Assembly: GCF_964204645.1 (NCBI RefSeq)
Contig: NC_134033.1
Span: 13,890,155 to 13,954,154, forward strand
Source of the DNA: Tubulanus polymorphus
Taxonomy: Eukaryota; Nemertea; Palaeonemertea; Tubulaniformes; Tubulanidae
DNA: 64,000 nucleotides
Reading direction: 5' to 3'
Shown here: positions 15,391 to 63,205 of the stretch, piece after piece
Layout: the number at the start of each line of letters is the position of its first letter
Numbering within the stretch: the first letter of the stretch is position 1
Made by a program: the position numbers and the translations under genes
The notes under the pieces: model-generated
The model's input: the letters and a program-made list of their open reading frames with translations, nothing else
What the model was told of the DNA's origin: nothing
The model's database searches: none

Positions 15391-15790
15391 TCGGGGAGGG
15401 TGGGTAGGGTTGGGGGGAGGGCAGGGGTATAGGGAGGGTGGGAGGGATGGGGTGAGGGAGGGTGGGAGGGATGGGGTCTGGGAGGGGGGAGGGATGGGGT
15501 CTGGGAGGGTGGGAGGGATGGGGTCTGGGAGGGGGGAGGTATGGGGCCTGGGAGGGCGGGAGGGTGTAGGGATGGGCTGGGGAGGATGGGTGGTGGTAGG
15601 ACTTTGGAGGGAGGGGGTGATGGGTCTAGGTGGGTGATGGTAGTGTAGGGTGTAGGTGGGTGGGGGTTTAGGCTATAGGTGGGTGGGGGTTTAGGCTATA
15701 GGTGGGTGGGGGTTTAGGGTATAGGTGGGGGGTGGTGAAGGGTTTAGGTGGGGGGTGGTGAAGGGTTTAGGTGGGTGGTAGTGTTCTGTC
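15391..15790. repeat. G-rich minisatellite next to the left inverted arm
   Basis: Tandem degenerate units of GGGAGGGATGGGGTCTGGGA, then GGTGGGTGGGGGTTTAGGCTATA, all with G on the + strand. Dense G3+ runs with short loops make G-quadruplex formation plausible. Apparent ORFs here are repeat artefacts. Confidence 0.85.
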
Positions 15791-19875: not shown

Positions 19876-20375
19876 AGGACTCGATGGGTGGGCATTGAGG
19901 GAGGGCTAGGTGGGTGGGCATTGAGGGAGGGCTAGGTGGGTGGGCCTTGAGGGAGGCTAGGTGGGTGGGCATTGAGGGAGGCTAGGTGGGTGGGCATTGA
20001 GGGAGGCTAGGTGGGTGGGCATTGAGGGAGGCTAGGTGGGTGGGCATTGAGGGAGGGCTTGGTGGGTGGGCATTGAGGGAGGGTTGTTGGGAGGGAGGGA
20101 GGGTTGGGGTCTGGGAGGGAGGGCGGGAGGGAAGGGGTCTGGGAGGGCGGGAGGGAAGGGGTCTGGGAGGGCGGGAGGGAAGGGGTCTGGGAGGGCGGGA
20201 GGGAAGGGGTCTGGGAGGGCGGGAGGGAAGGGGTCTGGGAGGGGGGAGGGATGGGATCTGGGAGGGCGGGAGGGAAGGGGTCTGGGAGGGTGGGGAGGGA
20301 TGGGGTCTGGGAGGGTGGGAGGGAAGGGGTCTGGGAGGGGGGAGGGAAGGGGTCTGGGAGGGTCGGGACGGGAGG
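19876..20375. repeat. G-rich minisatellite next to the right inverted arm
   Basis: About eight copies of a GGTGGGTGGGCATTGAGGGA unit (19885-20085) are followed by copies of GGGAGGGAAGGGGTCTGGGA (20100-20365). The G-rich strand is again +, the same orientation as the left array, although the arms outside the arrays are inverted. Confidence 0.88.
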
Positions 20376-34515: not shown

Positions 34516-37500
34516 ATGGCGGAGGTCGAGTACACTTTCCTCGGTAATACCGGCTTAAAAGTCTCTAATATTTGTTTAGGGACGATGACATTCGGTAGCG
34601 ATGAAAGAGTAAGTTGTCTGAATTGTTTCTCGTGAAATCCATTGCTTTAAAGCTTTCGTAGCTACGTTTTATTGTGAAAATATATCGTTTTCAGACGAGT
34701 CGGGGCGGCACAGTGTCCTCTTCCGAAGCTGAAAGTCACAGAATATTGGACCGATTTGCTGAACTCGGAGGCAACTTCATTGATACAGCTAATATATATC
34801 ATTATGGCATGTCTGAGACAATTATTGGGAATTGGCTTGAAAAGTAAATATAATTGTGTTGTATTTTTAAATAACGTGGTCATCGACATCGTGTGTAATG
34901 AGCTCTTTTTTATCAGTTTATACTAGAGCCACTTCCACTGTTGATAATTTCCATTTTGCAGACAGGATCGAAATAGATTTGTGATTGCCACCAAAGTTTT
35001 TGTTCCAATGGACCGAACAAATCCAAACGCTGGTTTTTTGAGTCGACAGCATATAATGTGGAGCATTAATGAAAGTCTACGTAGATTGAAAACTGACTAT
35101 ATCGATCTCTATCAGGTAAACTTTGGATATTCCATTATTTTTCATCGATTTGTTTAGCGGAAAGGCCAGATTAACCTGACCAAGTTCATACCAAGAACTG
35201 CGTTCAATAGATTGAAGTCTTAGGTCTCAATATCATGTCCTACATCTGCAAGTCATTCCTGTCCTGAAACAATCTGCGTTCAATATGGTTTTACACTAGT
35301 GACATTGATAAAAGGTTCAATACTGAAACTTGATGTTTTGGCCCCAATGTCTATCCAGTTTGGTAGAGATGGTTTTAGGGGATGGTCTGGGTGCCTGGAT
35401 CCCTGCCTTCCCGTCGATCTTGCCATTTTCGTTTATACAGATATCGTGAACACGGATACCTTTCTTCAAAAATATCTAAAATATACCAATAGTAGCCTTT
35501 GACATGGCTGCTTTATCCGGGAAATGCCTTTTCCTTTGTTTGGTGGGTCCCGGCCTTTTCCAATTTTCGTAGATCTGTTCCTGTCAGGTCGATTGACGTT
35601 GTGGTTGGTTGAGTATTCTATTGTCAGTGAATCAAAAAAAATCGTACATCTCGCAGAGCGTTCTAAAATTGAAATGAAGTGGACACCTTTGTTCATCCTG
35701 TTCATTGCAGGTTCATGCCTGGGATTGCGTGACTCCCGTTGAAGAAACATTCGGCGCGTTGGACGACTTGGTGAAAGCCGGAAAAATTCACTACATCGGT
35801 GTGAGTAATTTGTGTGGATACCAGTTGCAGAGAGTTGTTGACGTCTGTAAAGCGAAGGGACTTCAACCTGTGATAACTCTACAGGTAACATTCCGAATAT
35901 TGTGTAAAGTTTTTGCGACACCATTAGCCGACGGTTTATACATAAACGATAAGAATTTTCGTTGCAGGAATTCAAGCGTGAAGCTTTCTAGTTCCTTCAA
36001 GTTTAGAACTATCAAATCTGCTTTTATCGTGATAATTAATTCGTATTTTCACTTAATTATTTAGCAATTTTCGTTTTCTTTTTGTACACCCTGTTGCAAT
36101 ATGTTTCGTATTTCACTAAGTTCGATACAATAATAGTTGGTTCCAAGACGTGACACGATTTAAGCCGAAGACGGCAACTTACAATGTCTTTATAATGTTT
36201 CTTAAATTTTTCACCAACACGTGTATCTGTATATTTATTTAATCAGTTTTACCGTGGTCATGAATATATTTATGTTGGAATTGGATTTCTTTTCGCTATA
36301 GCAACAGTACAGTCTTCTTTGCCGTTTTTCCGAATTTGAGGAGTTCAACGTTTGCCAAGACGAAAAAGTCGGCATCTTACCGTGGAGTCCCCTCAAAGGG
36401 TAAGTAAACCCCGCCTTACTCGGACGTGACCAACTGGCACTTTTTGACCAACTCGGAACAAAAACGAAATCATTTTTCTGACTTTCTAAGCGTATTTTCT
36501 GATCCTTAACTGACTTCGCTAACCTCGGATTAATTTTTCCAGTCTCAGTTTGTCCGAGTTAGGCGAGGTTTACTGAACGAGTTTCTATCATTCATTTTTC
36601 GCTTGGGTCTGATTATTGATGTTTTTGACGAATAAAGATTAACTAAATGCCTCTGTGGGAAAACAGAAATATTCGTTTCGATAATGATTGTCTAATTTTC
36701 AGAGGTTTGTTATCGGGCAAATACTATCGCGGAATGACGCAGGATAAGTTGGACGAGCTGAAATCGCGTATCGCCTTTGCGACTAAGAATAAGGACACCG
36801 TACACGCGATCTCGCCCGACTTCGAAAAAACAGGCGAACAAGTCTTCAAAGTGTTGGATCATTTGAAGACCATCGCTGATAAGTATAGTAAGAAAAACGA
36901 ACATTAGAAATTCCTCTATCATTATTATTATTACTAACTGATTGTGGTAGTTTACGTAAATGACACTAAGGCGTTCTGCCACGAAACAGTAGACTCTGTC
37001 TTTGTAGCGCTTGGACTGTAAATACTATTTTCACCCTCACCGGTGAAGGGATACAACATTTATCATCAGGGAAGTTGGAGGTTTCCAGACGATTTACGGG
37101 TTAGACATATCGTCCTAGTAACTAACCCTAGAATGAGGAGGTTTACATCTGAATATATGAATTTGTTTACGTTTTTGTTGCATTTCGACATTCTCGTGAT
37201 ATACTTCCAACCAACAACGAATTCTACCTCTAAACTTAGCGACTAGCAGTTTTCAGTATCAGAGTCAATTTTTGAATCCTAGTCCGTTATAGCTATATTT
37301 CCACGATTTAGCATATCAACTCCGGCCCTGTACATATTATTATGCTAATGAACTGTAATATTGTGTTTTAATAAGGTAAGACCGTGGCGCAAGTGTCTTT
37401 AAGGTGGCTACTGCAGAAACCGGCGGTAACTTCCGTTATCATCGGGGTCAGGACGCTGGCCCAGTTAGAAGACAATATTGGCGCGTCTGCTGGCTGGAGA

Positions 37501-37760
37501 TTAACAGACGAGGAGGTGAGAATTTTGATACTAACTCGTTTCAATTCTAACACTGTAAAATTATCATTTTCGAAATGGTTCAGATTCTATAACATCCTGA
37601 CTAAAACTTTGTTCGTATTTTTCTTCTTGGAATATTGTAGATGGCGACACTCGACGAAGCTTCCGCCATAACAGATGTCCCGTACCCGTATAGTTTAGGA
37701 GTTGCGCTCAAACAAATGAGAACGGCGAAATTTGATTCGAAAATGTTCGCCAAAAAATAA
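34516..37760 (+). CDS. Aldo-keto reductase, tandem copy C
   Basis: Eight exons: 34516-34608, 34695-34843, 34962-35115, 35711-35884, 36302-36399, 36703-36887, 37376-37515, 37641-37760; 370 aa. The tetrad is complete ([22 protein letters not shown]). Relative to A/B it loses two residues in exon 6, uses VHAWD after the exon 3/4 junction and has a longer basic C terminus ([10 protein letters not shown]). A GG to GF change in NAGFLSRQ of exon 3 is unique to this copy. The intron 5 donor lies against a MITE, and the exon 7 acceptor is the unusual TAATAAG followed by GTAAGA. Cytosolic NADPH-dependent reductase by family; substrate unknown. Confidence 0.92.
36403..36574. mobile_element. CAGT-end (pogo-like) MITE at the intron 5 donor of AKR-C
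   Basis: AGTAAACCCCGCCTTACTCGGAC at the left is mirrored by GTCCGAGTTAGGCGAGGTTTACT at the right. The left end begins three bases into the intron, so the donor GTAAGT is partly element sequence. The orthologous element is at 41587-41757 in copy D. Confidence 0.7.
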
Positions 37761-42800: not shown

Positions 42801-43592
42801 TCTGCCACGAAAATATATACCTATGCAGTAGACTCTACCTCTGTAGCGTTTGGACTGTGAATAAAAGTTTTACGAAGTCGAATTTATGATAAGGGAAATT
42901 GGATCAGTTGAAGGGCTATTTTGATACGGTTAGATACGTCTGAGTACTACCTACTACCTACTAACCTTCGAATGTGTAAAATATATGTATTCAAATTGTT
43001 AGATGTTTTGTCTTGTTGACATTCTAGTGATATTATATTTCCAACCTATAACGAATTCTACCTCTAACTTAGCGACTAGCAGTTTTCAGTTTGAGTCAAT
43101 TTTGGAATCCTAGTCCTTTATAAGAAATTTCCATTATTTAGCAGATCAACTCCGGCCCTGTATATAATTATGCTAACGAATTGTAATACTGTGTTTCAAT
43201 AAGGTAAAACCGTGGCGCAAGTGTCTTTAAGGTGGCTACTGCAGAAACCAGCGGTAACTTCCGTTATCATCGGGGTCAGGACGCTGGCCCAGTTAGAAGA
43301 CAATATGGGCGCGTCTGCTGGCTGGAGATTAACAGACGAGGAGGTGAGAATTTTGATACTAACTCGTTTCAATTCAAACAGCTTGATTTTCGAAATGGTT
43401 CACGCCAAGGATTCTGTATTATCATCGTTGACATTAAACTATGTTCGTATTTTTCTTCTTGGAATATTGTAGATGGCGACACTCGACGAAGCTTCCGCCA
43501 TTACGGACGTCCCGTACCCGTATAGTTTCGTATTCGCGCTCAAAAAAATGAGAACGGCGAAATTTGATTCGAAAATGTTCGCAAAAAAATAA
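39894..43592 (+). CDS. Aldo-keto reductase, tandem copy D
   Basis: Eight exons: 39894-39986, 40075-40223, 40367-40520, 40907-41080, 41488-41585, 42251-42435, 43204-43343, 43473-43592; 370 aa. Exons are nearly identical to copy C, so this is the youngest duplication in the cluster. The tetrad is intact ([22 protein letters not shown]). At the position where A and B have Gly-Gly in NAGGLSRQ, this copy has Cys-Gly. Introns 5 and 6 are enlarged by foldback elements (41925-42080, 42461-42655). Exon 7 uses the same AATAAG acceptor as copy C. By family a cytosolic NADPH-dependent carbonyl reductase; substrate unknown. Confidence 0.92.
41587..41757. mobile_element. CAGT-end (pogo-like) MITE in AKR-D intron 5
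   Basis: Same position relative to the exon 5 donor as in copy C, ending GTCCGAGTTACGCGAGGTTTACTG, so the insertion predates the C/D duplication. Its left end has decayed (AGGAAACGTCGCC). Confidence 0.6.
41925..42080. mobile_element. Foldback element in AKR-D intron 5
   Basis: GAAAAATGAAGTCGGAAAA near 41929 is mirrored by TTTTCCGACTTCATCTTTC near 42028. The middle carries GTTTCGACTATAATCTAATAG then TTATCTTCAGG, a motif shared with 42461-42655. Confidence 0.6.
42461..42655. mobile_element. Foldback element just after AKR-D exon 6
   Basis: Two arms of about 95 bases fold on each other: AACTGAAGCTAGTAGTATTC then AACGTTTCGACTAGATCC, mirrored by GGATATAGTCGGAACGTTG then AATAAACTACTAGCTTCAGTT. 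The right end TTGTGGGATTCTCTCTAC recurs near 17745, 42040, 48925 and 63700, so this is a dispersed family. Confidence 0.75.
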
Positions 43593-45315: not shown

Positions 45316-48300
45316 ATGTGGCTAGGTCACTTCTTTTTAGCGGTTCAGATCGTCTGGGTCTACAACAATATAGCACCAGTCACAAGCGCAAGTAAGTCGA
45401 TTAAAAATATAAGGAGTCTACCGTAGAACTGTTGAACTATAGGATCCGAGATTTTATCTCGGAGTAAAAAAATGTTCCGATAATTCAGCTAGTATCCCAC
45501 AGAAAACATTCCGAAAATTTCGAATGATATGTCATGGCAAAGGGACGTTTAATATCTATTGAGAAAGTTAAGGAATATCTCATAGATATGTTCATTTTTC
45601 TAATACCTGACAGAAAATTCAAAAAGAAGTACTTTAATTACTGATAAAATGAGATTATGTCATCTTGCACGTGATAGAATTTCTACTGATTGAGTGTTTG
45701 GTAGTCTCTGAGAACGAACTACGCCGTCCGAACATCAACGTCGCTTTTTCTCCGTTCGTAGGTTCGTGCGCGCAAGGCTGGAAAAGTTATGGCAGAAACT
45801 GCTTTTTGTTCAGGACCACGAAAGTGACGTGGAACGAAGCGGCGATTATATGTCTGAAAGGCAAAGCACGACTAGCCGAAGATAAGGACAGTTTGACCCA
45901 CGCTTTTTTAAGATGTAAGTGGAAACGTTTAGCTAACACGACTGACCTTCTAGCACTAACTAATGCTAACACTTTCAGATAATACGTTTTACGCCATAGT
46001 TCTGTGGGTTAAGTGAATTGTATTTCAAAATAAACTACTATTTTGAAACAAAATTGTCGAGTTTGTCACGAGCGGTTAATGCGTATTTACATCGGCAAAT
46101 CTACCAAATTAATCGATGTCCGTCTTAAAACACTCAATTCACCGAAGTAAAATTAGAGCCTGGAAGTACTTTGCAACTAGACTGTTCGAAGATATTTGTT
46201 CAGGGCATTGGCCGGATAATAGCTTCTTGTACATTCGAATAAAGGCTGTCCTCAGTATGAGTTTTTCTCGGTGGTCTCCTCCCTTCTTCTTTTGACCTGA
46301 AACCGAGCTCCTGTCACATATTAACTATAACGAAAGGCCGATTATTTATTCAATAATAAAACACTCATAAAAATTTCGTCGATTGCTCATATTTTTTAAG
46401 CTGTAAAAACCGTTATATCAACGTTTATATGCATTGATACCTATTATGCGTTATTTTAGGGGTTCTGTGCGAGTCGATGTGCACTACGTCATCAATATTG
46501 GCATGTCAAAATAACAATTACGATTTTGAATTTGGCGTGTTTATTTGAGAGGATATGCAAAATAATCGGGGCTAGACTGCATTGCCGGTCAATTCAATTC
46601 ATTCATTCAATTCAAAAATTATCGATCCTCTATATTACATAAATCTTATGTTATATTATTTATTGTCGACAATAAATAATAATAACATGTGCTTTTTGCC
46701 AATGCGCCAGTAAACTTTCAAGTTAGTTTTTTTTATATATCCTATATGCAAGATTTTAGATTCATCTTTTCTTATTTCATCAAACGCTTGCAGCGAAAAT
46801 GAAAATCAAATCGCATATCGGTTTAAACGACCTCAGAAATACGAAAACACCACGACGAAGCTGGTACTGGCACGTGAGTACTAACCCGATAAACGAGACG
46901 GATAAGGCGCTTGTACGAAATTGAATCTGATTCGGTTTAGCTAAATCCTATTCGATGTTGGAAAACGTAAGGATTAGTAAATCGAATCGTTTTTTCGTAA
47001 ATGAGTCGAGTCAATTTATCAATTTAAAGGTCGCGATTCGAAAGAAAATGGGTGTCGATGGTGAACGAATTATTGATAGATGATGGTCTGCGATAGATGT
47101 CTTTAGCCCGCGGTCGAAGAGGACGCCATGTTGGATTTCACTGACCAAATCGCCACTAACTTGCTCGCCGAGCAAGTTAGTTGATTTAATAAATCAATTT
47201 ACTGAACCGCGTCCATAAACGAGTTGATTTACCAAATCGGATTCACTAAACCGCGTGCCGTAAACGTGAAAACTAAATCCATTTACAAAGATTCAGTTTC
47301 GTAAAAGCGCCTATATTACCCGTACCTGCTTATTTGAAGACAGTACGAGCTTGCATCAAGCATCCTCTCCCGGCAGGGATTCGAACCTGATGGCGTCGAG
47401 ATTGCCACGGTTCGTACTATGGCTGAGTGTAGCGATGTCATCAGGTTCGAATCCCTGCCGAGGGAGGATGGCAATGGAGCTACACTAGTAGCGAAAGCTC
47501 GTGCGTCAATTTAACTATAAGTCACACCTATAAAGTACTACTCGTCTCGTTGCATTTATTCTGCACCAGGATCACGGTTCCACTACGACACGGGCCAATC
47601 TTGACTCGAGCTTGATCCGGGCCAAATTGTTTCCCAAATTGTTTCCGTGTGATCGCGGCTTTAAACCCATGAAATGCATATATTTGTTCTTTTCTTGTTT
47701 TGAATAAACATTAACGTATTCATGGTATATATCTTTTCAGCATCATTTTCGAAACTGGCAGAAAAATGAACCGAACTATCGCAATGAGCAATGCATGGCG
47801 GTCATAGCCCGTTGGTATGATTCCAGATGCAACATCCCGAGACCGTCGATTTGTGAATATTCAAAATCAAGTAAATGCAACTTTCTACGCTGTGCTTCAG
47901 CGGGTTCGAGGCCCCTGAATTCTAAAATTGAAATCTTCATTTTGGAGATTCGATTTCGTATCGTCATGGAAATCTCCTGTCTTTTTTCTCAAACTGCACA
48001 TATCCCTTAATTTCTTACCAGAGATGAAAGCCAGTCGATGTTATCCGGGCTGGTTGAGTTGGGGCGATAGTTGCTACGCCCTACAGAGAACAAAGCGCAA
48101 TCATCACCAGGCAAATCTACACTGTCTTCGAATGAGAAGTCATTTGGTGGCGATAGAGAGTGCAGCGGAAGACAAGTATCTCAGCGGTACGTCGTGTTAA
48201 TCACGTGTCACATCGAAATGCACGCGCGATAAAGAAGAAATACGATATATACATCAAAAGGAATAAATGAATTTTTGTTTTGTATTTGTATAGGTATAAG

Positions 48301-51300
48301 ACGTAGACTTCCCGGCGGAATATTTTGGACGGGTCTACACGAGCAATTTAAGACTGGTTACTGGAAATGGGCGGTATGAAACGCTCGCCCGTTCGTTCGT
48401 TCGTTCGTTCGTTCGTTCGTTCGTTCGTTCGTTGGAGTCAGTAACGTACAGTTCTTTAACATGGATTTCTTTCTCTAATTCAAGGGACCGAGTTTCGTTA
48501 ACTGGAACAGAGGTGAACCAAACAACGTCAGAAACGAGGACTGCACGCACGTGTACAATAACGGCAAATGGAATGATATCAGCTGTAATGCGCGTCAACG
48601 ATTCGTCTGCAAATCCAGAAAAAGTAAGTTCACGCTGCTATTCCTAACTAGCTTCGCGACGCTTTTATACGGATTTCGACGACGAACAAAAAAAAACTAA
48701 TACGAAAATCATCTTATTTCGAAGTTGAGGGTAAATGTCCCGGCGGTTGGAAGTCGTATAGACATTCGTGTTACAAGTACTACCCGCAGGCTAAGAATTT
48801 TGCAGGCGCGCGTCAAACATGCAGAAGTCAAAAGAGCTACCTGGCCTGGATCGACGACATGGATGAAAATAATTACATTCGGCGTAAGTTGATAAAACGC
48901 TACATATCCGTGTTGTGACGGTAATATAGAGAAAATCCCACAATAATGACGAAAAACGAAGTCCGAAAATGTTTCCTAGAGTTGGTAGTTTATTCTCCGG
49001 AGTTGTTTAAGATGTTCACCTTGGCTTACCTTTTTTGCAAATAGGACTCGGAGGAGGAACTATATTCATCGGATTGAATGACATGCGACGAGAAAGTTAT
49101 TTCACTTGGGATGTAAGTTGCAAAAGAAAACTGTAAATTCTACTCATAGAAGGAGCTATTGTTTAGGAATTGAAGTGATCGAGAATTTTTCCAGGGTCCG
49201 GAGAGTGGGAGTTTATACTGGGCTCCCGGGAATCCAAACAACAAGAAAACGGACGAATGTACCGGTATGGACATGAGAGGAAAATGGACGAACTACAATT
49301 GCAAGAGCAAAAAGGAAGGATTCATCTGCCAAAGAGGCATCGGAGGTAAGCTTCCGCCTTTACCAACTTGTTTATTATGATAAATATGACTATGATAAAT
49401 ACATTGCGTCGCCGTGATCGGAATCTTTTAGAGTTTGACTGATTGTAAAGGAACTTAATCTTTGAATGTTACTTAACCCAAGACCCCCTAAATCTAAGAT
49501 CTTCTATTCCTGATCCGGAATAAAGTAGCCCGAGATATTCATTTCATATCCATGGGATGTCAGGGGATTTCATGAATATGAAGTTATTAAACAACGGCCA
49601 ATCTGATTGACTGTCAATCTCCGAGCGTTTTCTCTAGGGCAGGGGTTTTGATGCTGTCAGGTCCCTGCACAGAGAGCTGATGTGTCTCTAGGGCAGGGGT
49701 TTCGATGTTGTCACGTCCCTGCACAGAGAGCTGATGTGTCTCTAGGGTAGGGGTTTCGATGTTGTCACGTCCCTGCACAGAGAGCTGATGTGTCTCTAGG
49801 GCAGGGGTTTCGATGTTGTCAGGTCCCTGCACAGAGCTGATGTGTCTCTAGAGCAGGGGTTTTGATGTTGTCAGGTCCCTGCACACAGAGCTGATGTGTC
49901 TCTAGAGCAGGGGTTTTGATGTTGTCAGGTCCCTGCACAGAGCTGATGTGTCTCTAGAGCAGGGGTTTCGATGTTGTCAGGTCCCTGCACAGAGCTGATG
50001 TGTCTCTAGGGCAGGGGTTTCGATGTTGTCAGGTCCCTGCACAGAGCTGATGTGTCTCTAGAGCAGGGGTTTTGATGTTGTCAGGTCCCTGCACAGAGCT
50101 GATGTGTCTCTAGAGCAGGGGTTTCGATGTTGTCAGGTCCCTGCACAGAGCTGATGGGTTTCGTATGGCAGGGGGTTTGGTCTGACAGAGTCTAACATGA
50201 TGTCATCAGGTTTGGAGGGAGGGTGTGTCTACTAGGACAGGGGTTTGTACTGTGTCAAGAGTCTAATGCCACCAAATCCTCACGGGAGGATGGGTCTATT
50301 AGGGCAGATATTTGTATGGTGGCAAAGTCCCTCGACGTCATCAGGTTCGAGTCCGACTTGTGGGGGAGGGTGTGCTATAAATACGTCTGAACCCTCGATC
50401 GTAGTTAACTTTAGTTTTAGTTAAATATGGTATCACTTTCAGTTAGTGGTCCGGCGATAGGGGGAAGTTCAGGAGGATCAAGATGTAAGTAGAAGGCGAT
50501 GCCATACTTGAAAGAAAATCACATCAATAACAAGTCAACATATTAAATGAATATATCTATTCAATAATTTTATATAAAAGTCATCCTAACTCTATAGGAT
50601 TGTGCATAAATGCCCGAATGATCTGGACCAATCTAATCTAGAACCAGTTCTGCTTCGAGTTTTGACTCGTAAAGAATGAATCTCGATTTTTGTTTGTTTG
50701 TGCGATTGATTTTAGCTTCTGGGGGAACTCGAATGAGGAGGACAGGGTGTTTTCTGGACAAAGCGAAGCGAGATCTGCCGAGTGGTTTTAAGAGCAATAA
50801 TAAGATGACTCCAATAATGTGCGTCCGTCATTGCGCTAAAAACGGTGAGTATACCATAACTGTTCATATAGTTCAAGATTAGAAACGTTAGAAAACGGAT
50901 TGAGATATTACCAATATCAGATACGTTTATTCTCATTCATAAATTGTTTTTGTTTAATAGGATTTAAATACGCTGGAGTACAGTACGCGCGTCAATGTTT
51001 CTGTGGTAATAAATATGGTAGATACGGCGGTAGACCGAACAGAGAATGTAATATGAAATGTGGCGGAGACAAATCAAAAACATGTGGCGGCACCTGGCGG
51101 AATAATATATACAGAATTATTGGTAAGAAATTGTCATTTTTATTACTGATCAGTCGCTTAGATAACTCATCGTCTTTGGGCGATTCAAAGTGGATTTTCC
51201 TATTATTAACGTCCATTTCGACTTTCATCACTGGCCAATTTCAGGAATAAATCACGTATTCAAGCTTTTCTAACGGCTTCTGTTTTGAATTTATTTCTAG

Positions 51301-54300
51301 TGCGGCGGCGAGGACGGGGTGAGTAGAAGGATTTGTTTGGACGTTCTATTAACATTTCTAGAATATCGCTGTTTCATCCATAGACAAAAAATAATATCTA
51401 TATTGTCTTGTAGGAAGAACTCGAATGAAGAAGACAGGATGTTTTCTGGACAAATCAAAGCGAGATCTACCGAGTCTACATATCCATAACAATAAGATGA
51501 CTCCAAGACTGTGCGTCCATCATTGCGCTAGAGGCGGTCTGTAATATTTGTCATAACTGTCCACGTACACATCAGAAAATGAAATATCTTTCCTCAATAA
51601 AAGTTAAACACTTTTTAAAAAATGAAATGGTTTTATAGGATTTAAATACGCGGGAGTACAGTATGGGCGTCATTGTTTCTGCGGTAATAAATATGGTAGA
51701 TACGGCGGTAGACCGAACAGAGAATGTAACATGAAATGCAGCGGAGACAAATCAAAAATATGTGGCGCTGCTGGCAGAAGTAACATATACCGAATTATTG
51801 GTAAGAATTCATCTTTTTGATTAAGAATTGGCCGATTTGCTGCCGTGATTCATTGTCGTTTGATCATAATTCAGAGTCGATTTTATACAAATATTGATAT
51901 TGATCTTGATTAACATTTTAACTTTCATCAACGGCTAAACATTCGCCACGTTTTCATATAACTCTATAACGGCTTCTGTTTTGAATTTATTTCTAGTGCG
52001 GCGGCGGTCACGGGGTGAGTAGAAGGATTTGTTTGGACGATGTATAAACATTTTTAGAATTTCGCTGTTTGTTACTTACTCGACAAAATTTATTAATGTT
52101 GTTTTTTTATATTGTATTATATTTATATATTGTAATGAATTAACATTTCTAGAATATCGCTGTTTCATCCATCGACAAAATATCTATGATGTCTTTTAGG
52201 AAGAACCCGAATGAAGAAGACAGGATGTTTTCTGGACAAAGCAAAGCGAGATCTACCGAGTCTACATATCCATAACAATAAGATGACTCCAAGACTGTGC
52301 GTCCATCATTGCGCTAGAGGCGGTCTGTAATATTTGTCATAACTGTTCGCGTACACATTTATAACATCAGAAAATGAAATATCTTTCCTCAATAAAAGTT
52401 AAACACTTTTTAAAAAATGAAATGGTTTTATAGGATTTAAATACGCGGGAGTACAGTATGGGCGTCATTGTTTCTGTGGTAATAAATATGGTAGATACGG
52501 CGGTAGACCGAACAGAGAATGTAATATGAAATGCAGCGGAGACAAATCAAAAATATGTGGCGCTGCTGGCAGAAGTAACATATACCGAATCATTGGTAAG
52601 AATTCATCTTTTTGATTAAGAATTGGCCGATTTGCTGCCGTGATTCATTGTCGTTTGGTCATAATTCAGAGTCGATTTTATACAAATATTGATATTGATC
52701 TTGATTAACATTTTAACTTTCATCAACGGCTAAACATTCGCCACGTTTTCATATAACTCTATAACGGCTTCTGTTTTGAATTTGTTTCTAGTGCGGCGTC
52801 GAGGACGGGGTGAGTAAAAGGATTTTTTTTAGGACGTTCTATTAATATTCCTAGAATATCGCTGTTTAATCCATCGACAAAAATATCTATATTGTCTTGT
52901 AGGAAGAACTCGAATGAGGAGGACAGGGTGTTTTCTGGACAAACCGAAGCGAGATCTGCCGAGTGGTTTTAAGAGCAATAATAAGATGACTCCAATAATG
53001 TGCGTCCGTCATTGCGCTAAAAACGGTGAGTATACCATAACTGTTCATATAGTTCAATATTAGAAACGTTAGAAAACGGATTGAGATATTACCAATATCA
53101 GATACGTATATTCTCTATCATAATTTTTTTGTTTAATAGGATTTAAATACGCGGGAGTACAGTACGCGCGTCAATGTTTCTGTGGTAATAAATATGGTAG
53201 ATACGGCGGTAGACCGAACAGAGAATGTAATATGAAATGTGGCGGAGACAAATCAAAAACATGTGGCGGCACCTGGCGGAATAATATATACAGAATTATT
53301 GGTAAGAAATTGTCATTTTGATTACTGATCAGTCGCTTAGATAACTCATCGTCTTTGGGCGATTCAAAGTGGATTTTACTAATATTAACGTCCATTTCGA
53401 CTTTCATCAACGGCCAATTTCAGGAATAAATCACGTATTCAAGCTTTTCTAACGGCTTCCGTTTTGAATTTATTTCTAGTGCGGCGGCGAGGACGGGGTG
53501 AGTAGAAGGATTTGTTTGGACGTTCTATTAACATTTCTAGAATATCGCCATTTAATCCATCGAAAAAAAATAATATCTATATTGTCTTGTAGGAAGAACT
53601 CGAATGAGGAAGACAGGATGTTTTCTGGACAAAGCAAAGCGAGATCTACCGAGTCTACATATCCATAACAATAAGATGACTCCAAGACTGTGCGTCCATC
53701 ATTGCGCTAGAGGCGGTCTGTAATATTTGTCATAACTGTTCACGTACACATCAGAAAATGAAATGTCTTTCCTCAATAATAGTTAAACACTTTTTAAAAA
53801 ATGAAATGGTTTTATAGGATTTAAATACGCCGGAGTACAGTATGGGCGTCATTGTTTCTGCGGTAATAAATATGGTAGATACGGCGGTAGACCGAACAGA
53901 GAATGTAACATGAAATGCAGCGGAGACAAATCAAAAATATGTGGCGCTGCTGGCAGAAGTAACATATACAGAATTATTGGTAAGAATTCATCTTTTTGAT
54001 TAAGAATTGGCCGATTTGCTGCCGTGATTCATTGTCGTTTGACCATAATTCAGAGTCGATTTTATACAAATATTGATAATGATCTTGATTAACATTTTAA
54101 CTTTCATCAACGGCTAAATATTCGCCACGTTTTCATATAACTCTATAACGGCTTCTGTTTTGAATTTATTTCTAGTGCGGCGTCGAGGACGGGGTGAGTA
54201 AAAGGATTTTTTAGGACGTTCTATTAATATTTCTAGAATATCGCTGTTTAATCCATCGACAAAAATATCTATACTCTCTTCTAGGAAGAACTCGAATGAA

Positions 54301-57300
54301 GAAGACAGGATGTTTTCTGGACAAACCGAAGCGAGATCTGCCGAGTGGTTTTAAGAGCAATAATAAGATGACTCCAATAATGTGCGTCCGTCATTGCGCT
54401 AAAAACGGTGAGTATACCCGCAGGTGTGGTGGGTCTGTAAGGGACACTCAATCAAAAAATCTAACGAAATTTACAAACCAAATAAACAACAGGGACAATC
54501 CCTATTTTAAGATCAAAAAAAAAAAAAAAAAAAAAAAAAAAACGATGAGTATACCATAACTGTTCATATAGTTCAATATTAGAAACGTTAGAAAGCGAAA
54601 TGAGATATTTACAATATCAGATACGTTTATTCTCTATCATAATTTTTTTGTTTAATAGGATTTAAATACGCGGGAGTACAGTACGCGCGTGAATGTTTCT
54701 GTGGTAATAAATATGGTAGATACGGCGGTAGACCGAACAGAGAATGTAATATGAAATGCAGCGGAGACAAATCAAAAACATGTGGCGGCACCTGGCGGAA
54801 TAATATATACAGAATTATTGGTAAGAAATTGTCATTTTTATTACTGATCAATAAGGCATACAGAATAGCTGTTCCTCATTTGCATGCATATTTGCTGTGC
54901 AAATTTCATCCAGCATCAAGATGGCCACCAGGCAGCCTCTTCTGTATAATCCCGATATTCTCTTCCGGATACGAGCACAAGTCAATTTCACTTCGCAATT
55001 CCAATTCAAAATATTTATTTTCAGTACGGAGGGGACGCGGACGCGGACGCAAATCTTGTAAGTAAAACGATTTCATCGAATAAACAAGAACATACTTTAT
55101 TAACTGTGATTACGTTACGTTTTTCTCCTGGGTTAAATAGCGAAGGGTTGGAGACGGTTCGGTAGGAAATTGTACCTATTCGACACGTCTAAATCAGAAA
55201 GCTGGATCTCCGCAGCCGATTCGTGCGCGAAGATGGGAGCCAAACTTGCCGCACCACAGAACCTATACGAACAACACTTCATCAACCGTAAGTATAGATA
55301 GAACAAGTATGATGATTATCATAATCATTCGCGCATAAATTTTATATTTGAAAATAATATAATGGGAACAAGGTGATTTCATTCAGGTTGATGGGCACCA
55401 CAGGAGTAGATACAAACTTCTATTCCTTAAACGTGGCCACGGTGCCCTTGGAAATCGCACACGCATCATCACCCAAATACACACACACACGACCTAATCG
55501 TATCACACTCAGAACCACCTTTTCATTCCGGCTTTCGTCGTTTCAGTGAACATACTATGTTTGTTCTCTTTTTCACAAAGACAATGCTTATGCAAGTATT
55601 ACCCCTGGTTTTTTTAACCACAGATTATCATCGAAATAGCACATAGAAGATCATTGACCGTATTAACACCTTTCTTCAATCTTCCTCAGAAAATAATAAA
55701 GCGTCTTCATCCTCAAAGACTAGGCTACGGTATTTGTATATCCTTACAAATACATAATTTCATTAGGACATATGTAATTTTGAAACACGTGTTGAATACA
55801 TTAGTATTGAAGAAATGTCACAAACATTTACATCAACATAAATGAATGATGTATGAATATTAACCGTTGACCCATCGTCAGAATAACCAAATACAATCTA
55901 TTGGAATCGCTAACCATTTGATAAGTCTTAAATGCGTACTTTTTATTCAACAAAAAAAAAAAACGTCGCAGTCTCCATATATTTCACATGATGTTCATGG
56001 TCGATCAAATCACTGAATATTTGATACGTTTACAATGGAACATGTTTATCATCGCGGTGACCATTATTGACGTCGTATTTAGATATATGGGGGGCATTTC
56101 TGAAAAATATCGATTACGCCTATACGTCTAAAGTCAGTATTCGTTGAAATAAAAAGATCAACCCCGTTTTAACTGTAGTCGTTGTGAATACGCTGAAAAA
56201 GAAAATGCTTCATATCGGGCTTTACGACCTCTCATCAGATCCCCGCCGTAGAAGCTGGCGCTGGCACGTGAGTACTTCATCGATTACCAACAAAATTCCC
56301 GATAAAAGACCTAGGCCCTATGGTCCTATCCGTAATTTCTCCGGCGTTATTTTTTTTTCGTCAGGCAACCTATCAAAATTGGAAAGCTCCTAAGATGTAT
56401 AAATACGTGAAAGGTCGTCATTGTACGACTATAAACCGATCCGGAAGATGGATGAAAGAACCGTGTATGTGGAAACGACAAACTATCTGCGAATACGACT
56501 ACAAGCGTAAGTCGAGCGTCTCACGAAAACATGACCAAAACTGATATTTCATACAACATACCCATGGTCAACACATTAAAATACGGATTTGATATATCAC
56601 ATATTTGTCTTATTCATCTTATATCTAAGCTTCGAAAAGGTAACATTTCATAGAAAATCTCTCTTATATTTTGCCAGTGAGGGGTAACAGCGGATGTCCT
56701 CGAGGCTGGAAGAAATCCGGCAGGTTTTGTTGGTTCCATATCAGACAGAAATACAATCTACCGGTTGCGTTCGCTTACTGTAACAAACGCAACTCGCGAC
56801 CGGTGTGGTTAGAAGACGCCCGCAAAGAAGCCGCCCTAAAACGTAAGTTTTCACCCGATTGAAAACAGGTGATAATAATAATAAATTAATAATAAATTTA
56901 TTTCTACAATAAAATTACAACATGTCATAAAGAGATATACAAATATGAAATGTTTTAATATAATGTGGAGGAGATTAGATGAAGCCAATGAAGGCTTATA
57001 AAATCTCTAATCCCCTAGCATACAGCGATTCACTCAACTCATACACACATGCAGTCATACACCTTCACCCAACATGCACCCACACACGTAGTCACTCAGG
57101 CGGTCAATCACACTATCTTTCATTCACTCTTACAATCTGGTAACAATTTCAAAACTGCAACTTAACAAGTTAGATAACTCATACGTCATCCACACGTGAA
57201 ATTCATCAAAATTTACGTTTTTCCAGGGGCGTTCAAGGGTCATTTCTGGATCGGAAATTTCCAGTTGAAAAAGCATTTCTGGAGATGGACGGTAAGTACA

Positions 57301-60300
57301 TGGTCTAATTCTAGAATTCCGATGGAGTCGGGTCGGGTATCTCTCCCAACTCGGGACTTCAGTCCCAGTGGGCTATTGCGTTTGAAGTTTTCGAAAGGAT
57401 GAATATTTGATAGATGATTTTAACCTTCGCAGGGTGGCAAGTTTCAATTATGGAACCCTGGAGAACCGAACAACTGGGGTGGCAAAGAGGACTGTACTTA
57501 CTTCACCATGAATAAACACAGAGGCTGGAATGATATACATTGCAATCGGCGATTCCATTCCATCTGCAAGAAAGCTAGAGGTAATTCCTTCATTATACTG
57601 TCATCTGAACAGGTCCTAAATCAACCGAGTGGATAATCATAAATTCGAACGAAAACGAACGCGCTTTTCGGAAACTCTTGCTTTTCGCAAACGACCTCCC
57701 CATAAATCTAGCTCAGTTCATTGATAATTCACGAGATTCTTCTCGCTTCAGTGGATAATAAGGGATGCCCTCGTCATTGGAAAAAGAGAGGCCGTTTTTG
57801 CTACCTATTTGTTCATCAAGCTCGCACATGGGTGCAATCCCATCAACACTGCAAAAAGTATCTATCGTACCTGGTTTCTGTAGACGACATCAAGGAACAT
57901 CGATATCTTGGAAGTAAGTGTCCGCCCAGCACCGAGATGTTCTCTTGTTGCTTAATGCAATCTGTTACAGTCGAATAAGTTCATTTTGATTCTTATATTT
58001 CAGAGTTGATAAAAACCAACACTTGGATTGGATATAACGACCGACTAGCAGAAGGGTTGTTCTCTTGGGCCGTTAGTAGTTTCATTCACATCTGAACTAA
58101 TTAGAAATAACTGGAAATCACTGTCAGTCTCAGACGTGTGTTTTTTGTTTCAAGGGTTTCGATGATGTGGATATCTGGTGGTTGCGAGGTGGATACCCGA
58201 AAGCGGACGCGAGTTTACGATGCGTCGGAACGTACAAAGGCCGTTGGGTTAACTACGAATGTGAACGAACGAAGAAACCAAAAATTTGCGAAAAATGGGC
58301 AGGTACGAGTTTGTAAGGGGATATGCCTTGGTAACGTGGACAGATACGATTATTCATTATATCAGTATTAATCCCTCAAAAAACTTAGTTTTGATGGCCA
58401 ATTTTCTTTTTCTCTAAAAATTACGATGTAGGTTTGCGAGTTTACAAAAATGCTAGACCCATGTTCAAAAAGAAGAAACGATCTAAGGGTAAACCGGATA
58501 AGCCGGATAAAAAGCCACCAGGTACGTCATGAAACAGCGTTCTAATCTGTATCTAATCGCATAACCGAAAAGTAGCAAAAACGAAATGATTGGAGATGAA
58601 ATAAGCGAGTTTGAAAAAGAAGCACAACTGCCAAATCTATCCGGCTATTTCATCCCCGGTTTTGTTGATTTAGAACTATGTCAGTATATGATTTACTTTG
58701 ATAGTATTCAATCTAATATTATATTACTAATAATGATAATAATATGATAATGTATTCAATATGGCTGTAAATCATATTCATTTTTTTCTCTATTAAAATT
58801 CTCAAATCTCTTGATTGCACCAGTTGAATACACTGAAAGGGTGTCAAATTCTTTCATCCACCTGCCCCGACCCACCATATCCTCCCATTCAAATTGTACG
58901 TTTTCTGTTTGTAAACATCGTATTGATTTTTCATTTATCACTTTTCACAAATCTCGATAACGTCGTCTTGATTTTGAATTTATTAAATCTTGCAAATTGC
59001 TTTAGTTTCGCTTTATGCCGGAATAATCCATTCATTTTCAGCCATTTTTGCACTAATTCCTCCCACCTGCATTTTCAGCCATTTTTGCACTAATTCCTCC
59101 CACCTGAAATGAACTTATGATGATTTTGCATTTTGTTATTCAAAAAAGTTGCAACTGAATTTTGAACGGGACCCTTTCAGTGTATTTCTACGTACGTGTG
59201 TATATCACGCGAATTTTCAAAACAAAAAACATTAACCCCTTAGCTTCCATTTGGATGAATACAACAAAATATGATTGAAATGCACTGAAGGGGTTAATGG
59301 ATTTTCTTTATGTAAACGGTATTTTGGTCAAAAAATCAGAAAAATGCCTTTTCTCGATGCATATTTTTCATCTTTGCTCAATTTGAATTTCGCTCACGAA
59401 TTAATGTCCGTTTTGTTTGGTTTCGTTTTTCTCCTAACGTTCTGATTGCAGTGGATAGATGCAAAAAGGGATGGACCAAATACGGTAATCGTTGTTACTT
59501 GTTTAAGAAGTCGAGTCAAATGACGTGGAACGGCGCGCGACGATTCTGCGACAAATCGTCTGCCCACCTACCATACATCCGGTCCGCGTCTGAAAACGAT
59601 TTCGTTCGAGGTTCGTATCGTCGCTTTCATCGTCATCATCATTATCATCACGGCTTAGATAGACCGATTAGTATGTCCGTATAGCCCGACTGTTTTTCTT
59701 CATAACATTATATTTATAATTATGTCCATTAATGTAATCATGTCGCTCTGAGGATCCGCTAGGGCCTCTAGTCACGATAAAAACGCGGGAACTGAGGTTC
59801 GAATTCAAACGCAACTTCAGCGATCGATGATCCACTTTGGGTGACCGAGTAACTACTAGCGAACCCGGTGGATCCTCACCTGCCATAAGTAAAATCCTCG
59901 ATTGCCACAGGAGGTAGGTTTCTAATTGCGTTGTTCTATTTGCAGCTCGAATGCGAACGGCTGGACGTAAAATCCATCTGGGATTGACGTCTTGGGCCGT
60001 CCGTCACGTGAAAACGTCGAAAAAGAAACGTCATATGTTTTACTGGCAGGTGCGCATTCATATTCCAAACAGTAAACCTCGCCCGACTAACATGGCCAAC
60101 TCGAATCTTTTGACTCAACTAAACTAAAACTAAACTCTTTTCGGACTCCTTAACCAATTTTGGAGCCTGTCATGTCCCAGTTTGTCAGGCGAGGTTTTTG
60201 GAGTTTGTCTACTGGGATTCGGTATTTAATATAAACTTTATAGAAAATATCAATCAACTCAATGAAATATGATAAGTAGATCTGAAGAAGATGGATATGA

Positions 60301-63205
60301 TTTCTCATTCAGGGAGCCACATTTTGGAAGTTTAGTTCTCGGAATCAGTATTTGCCCGTATATAACACCGGTTACGACTGTGGAATGTTGACGTATTATC
60401 GCGGAAGGCGACTTTTTGCCAATTCGAAGTGTTCGAAAAGAAACAGATTCATATGTGAGAAAACTAGTAAAAGTAAGTAGAATGAACTGTTGTATTAGTG
60501 TGATTCTCACCATTGTTGTTCTATGTGTGTTTCTCTTCCACCGGTGTTATTTCCACTCGTAATTCTTTCCATTAGAAAACCGTGTTATGTTAGAATCCGT
60601 GTTATCTATATGTCCATATTCCTTTATTTCTCCTAATCCGGTATTTACATTTGCAGTCTTTTTTCAAAGATTACGTTCGCCCAATTTTTTCTCTAAATCA
60701 ATTCTAATTACAACATTCACGTAATCAACTCAAACTTATCAACTTCATCTGCATTTTAGCAAACCCTCCACACCTTTTTATCTTCTTACTTCCACCGAAC
60801 CATGTATGGTTTGTTCATGCACCTACAGGCGTCACAATCTTCTAAATATAACTTTTGCCAGAGTTTACTGCCACGCCATATCTAGGTTTCCCTTCGTGCA
60901 CTCGCACGTTAGACGTCTATATACATAACTTCTTTCTATAGTTTAAGTGTGATGTAAGCATCCACTAGTAATTAGAGTAAATACGTTCCGCCACACTAAA
61001 AGAAACCTTGACCTAAGGCTAAAACTGATACCTCGATTCGGCAATGAAATTTGTAATCAGTTCATAACTGCCGGATCTGGTATCATAAGCTTGATGACAA
61101 TTTCTAAAAACATTGATGCACACGATATAGACAGTGGGCCGGCTCTACGTTTTCATATTATACACCAAAGATGAAGGAATGTTAAATGAAGAACAAATTG
61201 CTTATACAAATGAAAACAGCCCTCAGAGAAGAGATAGATTTTACTTTGTTCTATCGGTCGTGATTTATTTGGTGAGTATCTTCCTTTTTTAGAATGTTCA
61301 GGTATTTGGAAAAATAAGGGTAGGGGCAGACGGACGTCCAGAAGGCGTTCTAGTAGAAGGACTGCTGGCCAGTGTTACCATTTTTCGACGGTCAGTTTGA
61401 ACTGGTATCAAGCCAGACAGTGGTGTATTAGTAAAGGCGGCTACCTGGCTAGCATCGAAACGCAAAGTGAATTTGACTACATAAGCGGTAAGTCAATTCG
61501 GCACCAAAACCAAGAATTCATCATCATAATGGAAGAAGTTGTCTCGATTTTGAGCAAATGCAATCTTACGCCAAAATTACTTTCTTTCCTGTTCAAGAAG
61601 TTTTTTTAATGAAATTTGATATCCTTTTCAATTCAATATCGTAGGAAGAGCTTTCAAGACACAGGCTTGGATGAGTTTAAACGATGTTGGTCAATTAGGT
61701 TTTTTCCGCTGGGAGGTGAGTCAACAACGGTTTGAAAAAATCTATGGTAGCAATGATTAACAAAAAATTAATTCATTTTGGTATTCATGACTTGTTTTGG
61801 AAAATATTAATCAAAATGATCAATAATAAGATTTGTCATTGTTTCCGTTCAGAAAGGAGCTACGTTTGTGAATTTTGCACGAGGAGAACCGAATAACGTC
61901 GGTAATGAAGATTGTATTATGGTTTACAAGCGTAACGGCCTGTGGAACGACGCGCGGTGCAGGTCGAACATGAAATACGGGTGTCAAAAACCGGCTACTG
62001 GTAAGTTGGTTTTTACACACACGTCTCCTCACGTGAGCCATTCAATTAAATGATCGGACCATTCAATGAAATGATCTCAGTGAGAGACTCATGATTCGTC
62101 AAATGATCATCCCAACCCGCACCTACATGAAGAGATGTTCGGTGAATTCTATTCTATCTATCTTTTGATATTTCGATTACAATTATAGGTAGGAGGTGCC
62201 CACGACGTTGGCGATATTTCAAGGGAAATTGTTACTATTTCCCGAGGAAGGCCGCGTCGTGGATTCGCGGTAAAGTCTCGTGCGGAACTATGCGCGCTAC
62301 GATGCTGATTGTACCCGACCGCACGACAAACAACTGGCTACGTAGTGAGTATATACTTCATCCTGTTTCCGGTCACACTATAACCGCATTCTAGACTTTT
62401 TTGATCATTTTGCAGAATTCTTCGGCGGAAATTATTGGATAGGACTGAACGATATTCGTTACGAAGGAAGTTTTCGCTGGCAAGTGAGTGTGGTCTCTTG
62501 ATATGTTCCAAATTACATATCGATTCGGTGTGTATATATATATATATAGTGTTATGATTTCTCATTATTTCCAGGGTGGTGATTTCATGTATACAAATTG
62601 GCACAGCGGTGAACCGAAGACGAAAAAACTTCAGCATGGTTGTACCATTATGATGTCGGATGGTAGTTGGCATCTGAAAGAGTGCAGCTCAACGGCAGGT
62701 GTCGTCTGTCAGATACAGGTACATTTACAGGGTAGTTAGACAATTACCGTCGCCAATTTTTCCTCTCATCTTAAATACCCAATTCATTAGCTGTATTTGG
62801 TTAATTTGGTAGGTTTGTGGCGGGATGGAGTGCATAAAGGAGATAAAAATCGGGAGGGAGAGAAGAGAGAGGCTGGGAGAGGGGATAATGGGACGTAGTA
62901 GGAGAGGGCGAAAAGCGAGATAGGGACAGGAGAGAGGGACAATCAGAATGGAAAGAAGGGAAATGGGCTGAGAGAGGGGAGTTTTTATAGTGAATGATTG
63001 CTGTAATACAACTACATGAATATCCACCAGGTGAATCCGGCGAAGCGCACGACTAAAAAACGAAAACCCGCAAAGAAGAAACGAAAGCGTAAACCGTTCA
63101 TTCCACCGAAACCGACTCTACGAACGACGCGTCGTCCTAGCACGAGAGCGCCGGTTACTACAGTTACTCCTCGCAAAATGAAAAAGTTCACGTTCGGTAA
63201 CACCG
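45316..63205 (+). CDS. Large secreted lectin: signal peptide, 3 CTLD, 6 WSC, 6 CTLD, basic tail (3' end uncertain)
   Basis: Exon 1 (45316-45391) encodes a signal peptide [20 protein letters not shown] ending TSA. Every later module starts and ends in phase 1: nine C-type lectin domains of three exons each (phases 1-1, 1-0, 0-1), six WSC domains of two exons each, and short linker exons. The hand-joined exons to 63205 code for about 1,895 aa with no internal stop. Block positions are in the separate entries. CTLDs bind Ca-dependent sugars or proteins; WSC domains are eight-Cys putative carbohydrate-binding modules. A secreted or surface pattern-recognition or matrix protein is the likely role (inference). 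The last exon seen (63031-63205) ends at a phase-1 GTATGC donor, so the gene probably runs on; alternatively it reads through to a stop at 63414. Two neighbouring genes read as one is unlikely, because only one signal peptide is seen and the phases never break. Confidence 0.85.
47361..47470. repeat. Foldback copy of the tRNA-like dispersed repeat
   Basis: CATCCTCTCCCGGCAGGG and ATTCGAACCTGATG are mirrored by CATCAGGTTCGAAT and CCCTGCCGAGGGAGGATG. The middle has a box-A-like TGGCTGAGTG upstream of the box-B-like GGTTCGAATCC, as in a Ser/Leu-type tRNA-derived SINE. Lies in the intron between CTLD1 exons 2 and 3. Confidence 0.65.
47570..47665. repeat. Partial copy of the GGCCCG foldback family
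   Basis: CACGGGCCAATCTTGACTCG, GGGCCAAATTGTTTCC and GTGTGATCGCGGCTTTAA match the right half of the element at 30748-31054. Confidence 0.55.
48390..48433. repeat. (GTTC)n microsatellite beside a CTLD2 splice donor
   Basis: About 11 copies of CGTT begin 17 bases after the exon end at 48373; the donor itself is GTATGA. Confidence 0.92.
49624..50155. repeat. Minisatellite, about ten 52-54-bp units
   Basis: Units read TCTCTAGGGCAGGGGTTTCG, ATGTTGTCAGGTCCCTGCAC, AGAGCTGATGTG. It lies in the intron between CTLD3 and the WSC array and passes at 50160-50370 into related units with GATGTCATCAGGTTCG, linking it to the dispersed repeat at 8838-9010. Confidence 0.92.
50716..55057 (+). other. Lectin WSC array: six WSC domains in order A-B-B-A-B-A
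   Basis: Exon pairs: WSC1 50716-50844/50961-51122; WSC2 51414-51536/51639-51800; WSC3 52200-52322/52434-52595; WSC4 52903-53025/53140-53301; WSC5 53593-53715/53818-53979; WSC6 54285-54407/54659-54820. Linker exons of 18 bases (51301, 51997, 52792, 53480, 54176) each encode VRRRxRG; a final linker is 55025-55057 ([11 protein letters not shown]). Each domain has eight Cys in the WSC order: GCFLD, MTP.xC..HC, YAGVQYxxxCFCGN, ECNMKC, and a last CG near NIYRIIG. Type A (1, 4, 6) has [14 protein letters not shown] and TCGGTWRNN; type B (2, 3, 5) has [14 protein letters not shown] and ICGAAGRSN. Introns are nearly as similar as exons, so the expansion is recent. Confidence 0.9.
54419..54542 (+). mobile_element. 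Poly(A)-tailed retrosequence in the WSC6 intron
   Basis: A segment of about 95 bases ending in about 29 A is present only in the WSC6 copy and is flanked by CGGTGAGTATACC (54406-54418) and CGATGAGTATACC (54543-54555), a 13-bp target duplication with one mismatch. The duplicated target contains the exon's own splice donor. The inserted body is not recognised. Confidence 0.8.
55141..58302 (+). other. Lectin block 2: CTLD4-CTLD5-CTLD6
   Basis: CTLD4 exons 55141-55287, 56179-56267, 56365-56506; CTLD5 56678-56842, 57227-57291, 57433-57580; CTLD6 57752-57913, 58004-58071, 58155-58302. CTLD4 shares PRRRSWRWH with PRRSWYWH of CTLD1, but lacks EPN and WND and has lost both cysteines of the N-terminal disulfide (SKGW and KLYLF in place of C..GW and xCY). 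CTLD5 has [12 protein letters not shown] and WND. CTLD6 has IGYND but [12 protein letters not shown] and WVN, so its Ca site is degenerate. A basic linker exon (58432-58521, with [18 protein letters not shown]) follows. The intron after CTLD4 exon 1 is about 890 bases. Confidence 0.87.
60071..60205. mobile_element. CAGT-end (pogo-like) MITE in the CTLD7 intron
   Basis: CAGTAAACCTCGCCCGACTAACATGG at the left; the right end GTCAGGCGAGGTTTTTGGAG is decayed. Same family as 26211-26479 and the AKR intron copies. Confidence 0.55.
61016..61170. mobile_element. Diverged relative of the TTA MITE
   Basis: AAGGCTAAAACTGATACCTCG, then TTTGTAATCAGTTCATAACTG, GCCGGATCTGGTATCA and GGGCCGGCTCTAC follow the order of motifs in 25874-26083, but the right end is not recognisable. 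An old family member just upstream of CTLD8. Confidence 0.5.

Follow-up and report, generated by a model that had tools for sequence, protein, structure and literature searches.

A gene model of 41 exons and 1785 residues, built by hand by enumerating GT-AG exons according to phase, extends from an ATG at 45316 to a TAG at 62739 on the plus strand of the window that we have analysed (64,000 nucleotides of Tubulanus polymorphus DNA, corresponding to C9:13890155-13954154 of a 267.8 Mb assembly in 77 contigs; positions without a contig name are numbered within the window). Its predicted product of ~208 kDa consists of a signal peptide followed by three C-type lectin domains (CTLD1-3), six WSC domains (WSC1-6) and six further C-type lectin domains (CTLD4-9). 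That this is one gene for a secreted, modular and strongly basic lectin-like protein, acting as a multivalent binder or cross-linker of glycans, is in our assessment somewhat probable. The features of the model and of its surroundings are as follows.

45316..45391, + strand: exon 1, ATG and putative signal peptide, ending in phase 1 (direct reading; donor AA/gtaagt)
45762..47870 (45762-45914, 46794-46873, 47741-47870), + strand: CTLD1; NEPN and WYD, an incomplete Ca/sugar motif; Lectin_C 44.6 bits
48022..48623 (48022-48186, 48294-48373, 48485-48623), + strand: CTLD2; complete EPN and WND; Lectin_C 70.6 bits
48725..49345 (48725-48883, 49045-49112, 49195-49345), + strand: CTLD3; strong end donor AG/gtaagc; Lectin_C 53.0 bits
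49631..50174, + strand: 52-bp tandem repeat array (~10 copies, 95% match) within the CTLD3-WSC1 intron
50716..51122 (50716-50844, 50961-51122), + strand: WSC1, type A (splice model, Pfam)
51414..51800 (51414-51536, 51639-51800), + strand: WSC2, type B (splice model, Pfam)
52200..52595 (52200-52322, 52434-52595), + strand: WSC3, type B (splice model, Pfam)
52903..53301 (52903-53025, 53140-53301), + strand: WSC4, type A (splice model, Pfam)
53593..53979 (53593-53715, 53818-53979), + strand: WSC5, type B (splice model, Pfam)
54285..54820 (54285-54407, 54659-54820), + strand: WSC6, type A (splice model, Pfam)
55141..56506 (55141-55287, 56179-56267, 56365-56506), + strand: CTLD4; no Ca/sugar motif, four Cys; Lectin_C 54.8 bits
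56678..57580 (56678-56842, 57227-57291, 57433-57580), + strand: CTLD5; complete EPN and WND; Lectin_C 48.8 bits
57752..58302 (57752-57913, 58004-58071, 58155-58302), + strand: CTLD6; no Ca/sugar motif, weak gttagt donor on the middle exon; Lectin_C 45.1 bits
58432..58521, + strand: probable phase 1-1 linker exon between CTLD6 and CTLD7, Lys/Pro-rich, may be optional (splice sites and phase only)
59452..60472 (59452-59610, 59946-60049, 60313-60472), + strand: CTLD7; no Ca/sugar motif; Lectin_C 56.6 bits
61302..62000 (61302-61487, 61645-61715, 61853-62000), + strand: CTLD8; complete EPN and WND, Arg-rich N-terminal extension; Lectin_C 62.3 bits
62189..62739 (62189-62344, 62416-62483, 62575-62739), + strand: CTLD9; EPK, no WND; stop TAG 62737-62739; Lectin_C 57.0 bits
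63031..63205, + strand: possible alternative tail exon rich in Lys, Arg, Thr and Pro, joined in phase 0 to the donor after 62718 (splice sites only: donor 2.1, acceptor 1.6)

Gene model and domain order

In the stop-to-stop frame listing the region from 45.3 to 62.7 kb on the plus strand appears as a run of short Cys-rich frames. The model joins these frames through introns that are all GT-AG, with zero stops and zero frameshifts, and the single unbroken frame across phase-1 symmetric exons described in the initial annotation is thus borne out. Each CTLD is encoded by three exons (phases 1-1, 1-0 and 0-1) and each WSC domain by two (phases 1-1 and 1-1), whole modules of both kinds being phase-1 symmetric. 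The splice sites of the model that score weakly are the acceptor of WSC1 (-0.3), the middle donor of CTLD6 (-3.4), the first-exon donors of the type-B WSC domains (-1.5) and the first acceptor of CTLD3 (-1.0). Exon 1 reads by eye as a plausible signal peptide, as had been proposed, and the start of the initially proposed span (45316-63205) is likewise retained; its end is uncertain, lying either at the TAG at 62739 or, by way of a spliced tail exon, at 63205.

The proposed nine CTLDs and six WSC domains, in the order 3-6-6, were all found in Pfam searches, the fifteen domains each exceeding the respective cut-off. The nine Lectin_C (PF00059) matches score 44.6-70.6 bits against a curated cut-off of 22.6, and the six WSC (PF01822) stretches, with eight Cys each, reach 405.9 bits in total against a cut-off of 27.8. 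The WSC exons of the window were also recovered independently by a genome-wide WSC search. The corresponding genome-wide search with PF00059 missed 8 of the 9 CTLDs of the window because these are split over exons, and the counts that it produced have been set aside.

Sugar motifs, charge and predicted function

The EPN and WND residues of C-type lectins coordinate Ca2+ and mannose-type sugars (PMC12842671). Judged by motif only, the full EPN and WND combination is found in CTLD2, CTLD5 and CTLD8, i.e., once in each triplet of CTLDs, and is missing from the other six. The nearest solved relatives of CTLD2 and CTLD5 are domains of the mannose-receptor family and of the DC-SIGN type; in mollusc lectins EPN neither fixes nor guarantees mannose specificity (PMC12842671). 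The multivalent sugar binder suggested earlier is plausible because three CTLDs keep EPN and WND, but a description of the protein as having nine sugar-binding domains would overstate the case, since six of the nine lack a complete canonical sugar site.

A property that the initial annotation had not mentioned, and one that matters for function, is the strong positive charge of the predicted protein (pI 10.1, net charge +250). Per 100 residues, the WSC domains of the window carry +17.5 to +18.9 and its CTLDs +5.6 to +19.1; the corresponding means elsewhere in the genome are 3.2 (sd 6.1; 60 WSC segments) and 2.3 (sd 6.3; 12 CTLD segments). These comparison sets are small and non-random, and the contrast is large. 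The linker exon and the possible tail exon are Lys/Arg-rich as well.

Whereas the domain content, order, frame, repeat history and charge come directly from the analysis, we infer the ligands, tissue and role of the protein, together with its secretion, multivalent binding and cross-linking. The middle CTLDs (2, 5 and 8) would bind glycans of the mannose, glucose or fucose type through Ca2+, while the remaining CTLDs would serve as scaffold or bind other ligands. For the six WSC domains (PAN/Apple fold) we envisage an avidity block that would bind polysaccharide or protein, and acidic glycans, mucus or matrix may retain the protein by virtue of its net charge of about +250. As a whole, the protein would then cross-link or agglutinate extracellular glycans multivalently, be it on microbes or within the matrix of the animal itself.

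The charge could, however, reflect matrix binding without sugar specificity. An unlikely but appreciable alternative is a structural matrix protein (of a tube, cuticle, shell, egg coat or byssus-like material), in which the charge does the work and most domains are scaffold. Its pI and net charge are consistent with such a role, as is the incomplete Ca/sugar motif in six of the nine CTLDs; the complete EPN and WND motifs kept in three CTLDs, which drift would tend to lose, argue against it. The downstream neighbours are also of a suggestive kind, viz. a secreted protein of Gln/Pro/Gly repeats and a protein rich in Gly and Gln that has a multicopper oxidase domain. Multicopper oxidase proteins of such type are often linked to cross-linked matrices. 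Gene neighbourhood is nevertheless weak evidence in animal genomes, and the types of these neighbours make a matrix role worth testing and prove nothing.

The two neighbouring genes themselves lie 3' of the lectin gene. The first, just beyond it (C9:13955.5-13956.9k), looks secreted (MKVSFAVAFLTVMLGVSNA) and contains many tandem PPGRGYPPPQMAG-like repeats. The second (C9:13960.5-13963.6k) is an open frame of 1039 residues, at first Gly/Met-rich, followed by repeated Gln/Arg/Pro/Met units and then a multicopper oxidase part composed of three Pfam Cu-oxidase domains.

Extent of the gene and its 3' end

Secretion of the lectin-like protein is suggested by the 1785-residue model, which has no transmembrane segment and for which there are two candidate 3' endings, the in-frame TAG at 62739 with which CTLD9 can end and the tail exon at 63031-63205. 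The tail exon, which has no Pfam match, was at first dismissed as incompatible in phase with a phase-1 end and was readmitted through the phase-0 donor at 62718. It would also be the route to a membrane receptor, in which a transmembrane exon lies beyond 62739; we regard this form of the protein as improbable. The phase-0 donor at 62718 does match the acceptor at 63031, and the gene at C6:7906-7914k, a relative in the same genome, has a Thr-rich stalk and a transmembrane segment at its end. However, the stop at 62739 lies in frame and closes the protein with no transmembrane part, no convincing terminal or transmembrane exon was found in 63206-65400, before the next gene, and a different secreted-protein gene begins at ~65.5 kb (window numbering).

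The open frame across the modules is no proof of fusion, because phase-1 symmetry leads to the same expectation even between neighbouring genes. Two or three adjacent genes, each encoding its own secreted lectin (CTLD1-3; WSC1-6 with CTLD4-6 or 4-9; and perhaps CTLD7-9), must thus be weighed, and to these we assign a still lower probability than to the membrane receptor. The threefold occurrence of the CTLD triplet is what tandem gene copies would give, the joins are frame-neutral owing to the symmetric phases, read-through past the donors of CTLD3 and CTLD6 meets a stop within 12 and 4 codons, respectively, AATAAA is present at 49519 and 55079, and an ATG at 50676, in frame with WSC1, opens a short hydrophobic stretch. 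Since this would-be signal, which is short, includes D and R and overlaps the acceptor pyrimidine tract, we read it, however, as a by-product of that tract. The donors after CTLD3 and CTLD6 are strong: the phase-1 end donors score 6.3 for CTLD3, 3.6 for WSC6 and 4.1 for CTLD6, and donors scoring at least 4 occur here at 0.0012 per base, or about one per 850 bases. Exon enumeration also yielded no signal-peptide exon with a donor ahead of CTLD4 or CTLD7. On this splice-site evidence a single gene is favoured.

Repeat history and relatives of the modules

The nine CTLDs can be sorted into three groups of three in 280 ways, and among all of these the grouping (1,4,7)(2,5,8)(3,6,9) ranks first both by identity and by BLOSUM62, its identity being 31.2% vs. 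a mean of 26.9%. The middle exons of the CTLDs agree with this period of three, those of CTLD3, CTLD6 and CTLD9 having 68 bases and those of CTLD1, CTLD4 and CTLD7 a loop extension. In the tree the CTLD classes are weakly supported (64/59), which is to be expected of domains that share 19-38% identity. Judged by these comparisons, the nine CTLDs are three diverged copies of one three-domain unit, and an ancestral unit of three CTLDs would have been duplicated to yield the three triplets. Among the best candidates elsewhere in the genome, which were the ones scored, none proved to be a close relative of the window CTLDs.

The WSC array has a different history. Its domains are of two types that run A-B-B-A-B-A along the array, and the exon DNA is 95-99% identical within a type and 83-93% between types. 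Between types A and B, dN is 0.11-0.13 and dS 0.31-0.38; the resulting dN/dS of ~0.35 indicates that the WSC domains are under coding constraint. A rough tree with few columns was built from 53 WSC exons of the genome. The six WSC domains of the window form one clade in it (support 97/95), and this clade, together with the high identity within types, indicates that the array most likely expanded in place and recently. A WSC module between the first and second triplets would have reached six copies by tandem duplication. A pseudogene or assembly artefact, which copies up to 99% identical might suggest, is very improbable in view of the 41 exons without stop or frameshift, the dN/dS of ~0.35 between types and the differences among copies in both exons and introns.

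Arrays composed of WSC domains only are present at C4:21.72-21.77M, C7:4.055-4.073M and C3:24.25M. Each of them has at least four WSC modules of two exons, and no CTLD exon was found beside them on any of the three contigs. Their domains are up to 56% identical to those of the window, which nevertheless form a separate clade in the tree; a recent derivation of the window WSC domains from these arrays was rejected on the basis of this tree. On C7, two near-identical WSC-array genes (4055541-4058077 and 4064283-4066558) lie 8.7 kb apart, and there is a third array at 4070-4073k.

At least four other genes of the genome combine CTLDs with WSC domains. In three of these (C6:7883000-7892000, minus; C6:7906000-7914000, minus; C6:3160500-3168500, plus) a WSC domain interrupts a CTLD and a second CTLD follows. 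When the CTLD halves of the C6:7906000-7914000 gene are joined across the WSC domain, they match Lectin_C from end to end (profile 2-107 of 107), and the WSC domain is therefore nested in the CTLD; this gene continues into a Thr/Pro stalk of ~700 residues and a transmembrane segment. Another gene (C6:~4716700-4726900) has alternating CTLDs and WSC domains, about four of each, with single-exon WSC domains and a probable signal peptide. The two domains are thus combined in at least three ways in this genome, viz. in blocks, in alternation and with WSC nested inside a CTLD.

The closest solved domain to the window WSC is that of Kremen1 (52 bits). Kremen1 is a transmembrane protein with a single WSC domain in the order Kringle-WSC-CUB. 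The predicted lectin has no kringle or CUB match in Pfam. WSC domains in general have the PAN/Apple fold, some of them bind beta-glucan, and the Kremen proteins with their WSC domain participate in protein complexes (PMC9024836).

Comparison with other known proteins places the predicted lectin apart from each of them. The mannose receptor family (MRC1, MRC2, LY75 and PLA2R1) has 8-10 CTLDs, few of them sugar-binding, and is similar in this respect to the nine CTLDs found here. However, its members carry an N-terminal Cys-rich (ricin B) domain and FN2, whereas in the predicted lectin the signal exon joins CTLD1 and Lectin_C is the sole domain match in residues 1-146, with neither Cys-rich nor FN2 domain; they do not have a six-WSC array in mid-protein. 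They also have a transmembrane segment and a short cytoplasmic tail, neither of which was found in the window model with its two candidate 3' endings. Human PKD1 (polycystin-1) has both WSC and CTLD and belongs to a family that includes the sea urchin REJ proteins (PMC1934368). The presence of both domains in the ectodomain is common to that family and the predicted lectin, but in polycystin-1/REJ proteins they precede REJ, GPS and membrane-spanning parts, and there is no counterpart to six WSC domains and nine CTLDs. The domain pieces of the modelled protein gave no match to PKD repeats, REJ, GPS/GAIN, PLAT or a membrane-spanning region, and the genes that come next downstream belong to types other than polycystin parts. 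Glycerotoxin of Glycera, a large secreted annelid protein, has EGF, two WSC domains, CCP and an unknown C-terminus and, unlike the predicted lectin, no CTLD (PMC5336659). The bivalve CTL and WSC architectures, presumed to be immune, are lophotrochozoan combinations of CTLD and WSC as is the one described here, and the main text of that report does not give the order 3-6-6 (PMC10140915).

The initial annotation had proposed that no described family has a six-WSC array between CTLD blocks. The order CTLD(3)-WSC(6)-CTLD(6) was indeed not found described in open-licence papers, although proteins with both CTLD and WSC have precedent; a search of open-licence papers for WSC in shell matrix or venom returned nothing relevant. 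What is novel in the protein is the way in which familiar sugar-binding parts are arranged; it is not a new kind of molecule. We suggest tentatively that the protein may belong to a family of secreted polycationic lectins that is specific to its lineage and has not been described before, with repeated CTLD triplets and an actively expanding WSC array making up one multivalent glycan cross-linker. If confirmed, the gene would show how an animal builds up a large glycan-binding protein through a combination of two repeat processes, the old triplication of a set of three CTLDs, with one sugar site kept per set, and the young expansion of WSC domains in place. The product would also be a natural high-avidity basic lectin whose ligand, whether the matrix of the animal itself or a microbial wall, is directly testable, and it would point to repeated fusion of CTLD and WSC within one lophotrochozoan lineage. 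Knowledge of the CTLD or WSC fold is not changed by the finding alone.

Some other features of the window and of the genome were recorded. Upstream of the lectin gene, aldo-keto reductase exons were recognized by eye at 29125-29550, 35678-36061, 37375-37668 and 43208-43522, apparently in at least two tandem copies, and the acidic, charged exons at 3213-10834 resemble, by eye only, a chromatin-remodelling (RSF1/BAZ-like) gene. The G-rich minisatellites at 15394-15778 and 19885-20373, with units of 23-25 bp (GGGAGGG type), can give long spurious frames on both strands. Elsewhere in the genome, an ordered Hox cluster of ten homeodomains (C6, 5.32-5.63 Mb) comprises a lophotrochozoan set that reads by eye as Hox1, 2, 3, 4, 5, Lox5, Antp, Lox4, Lox2-like and Post2.
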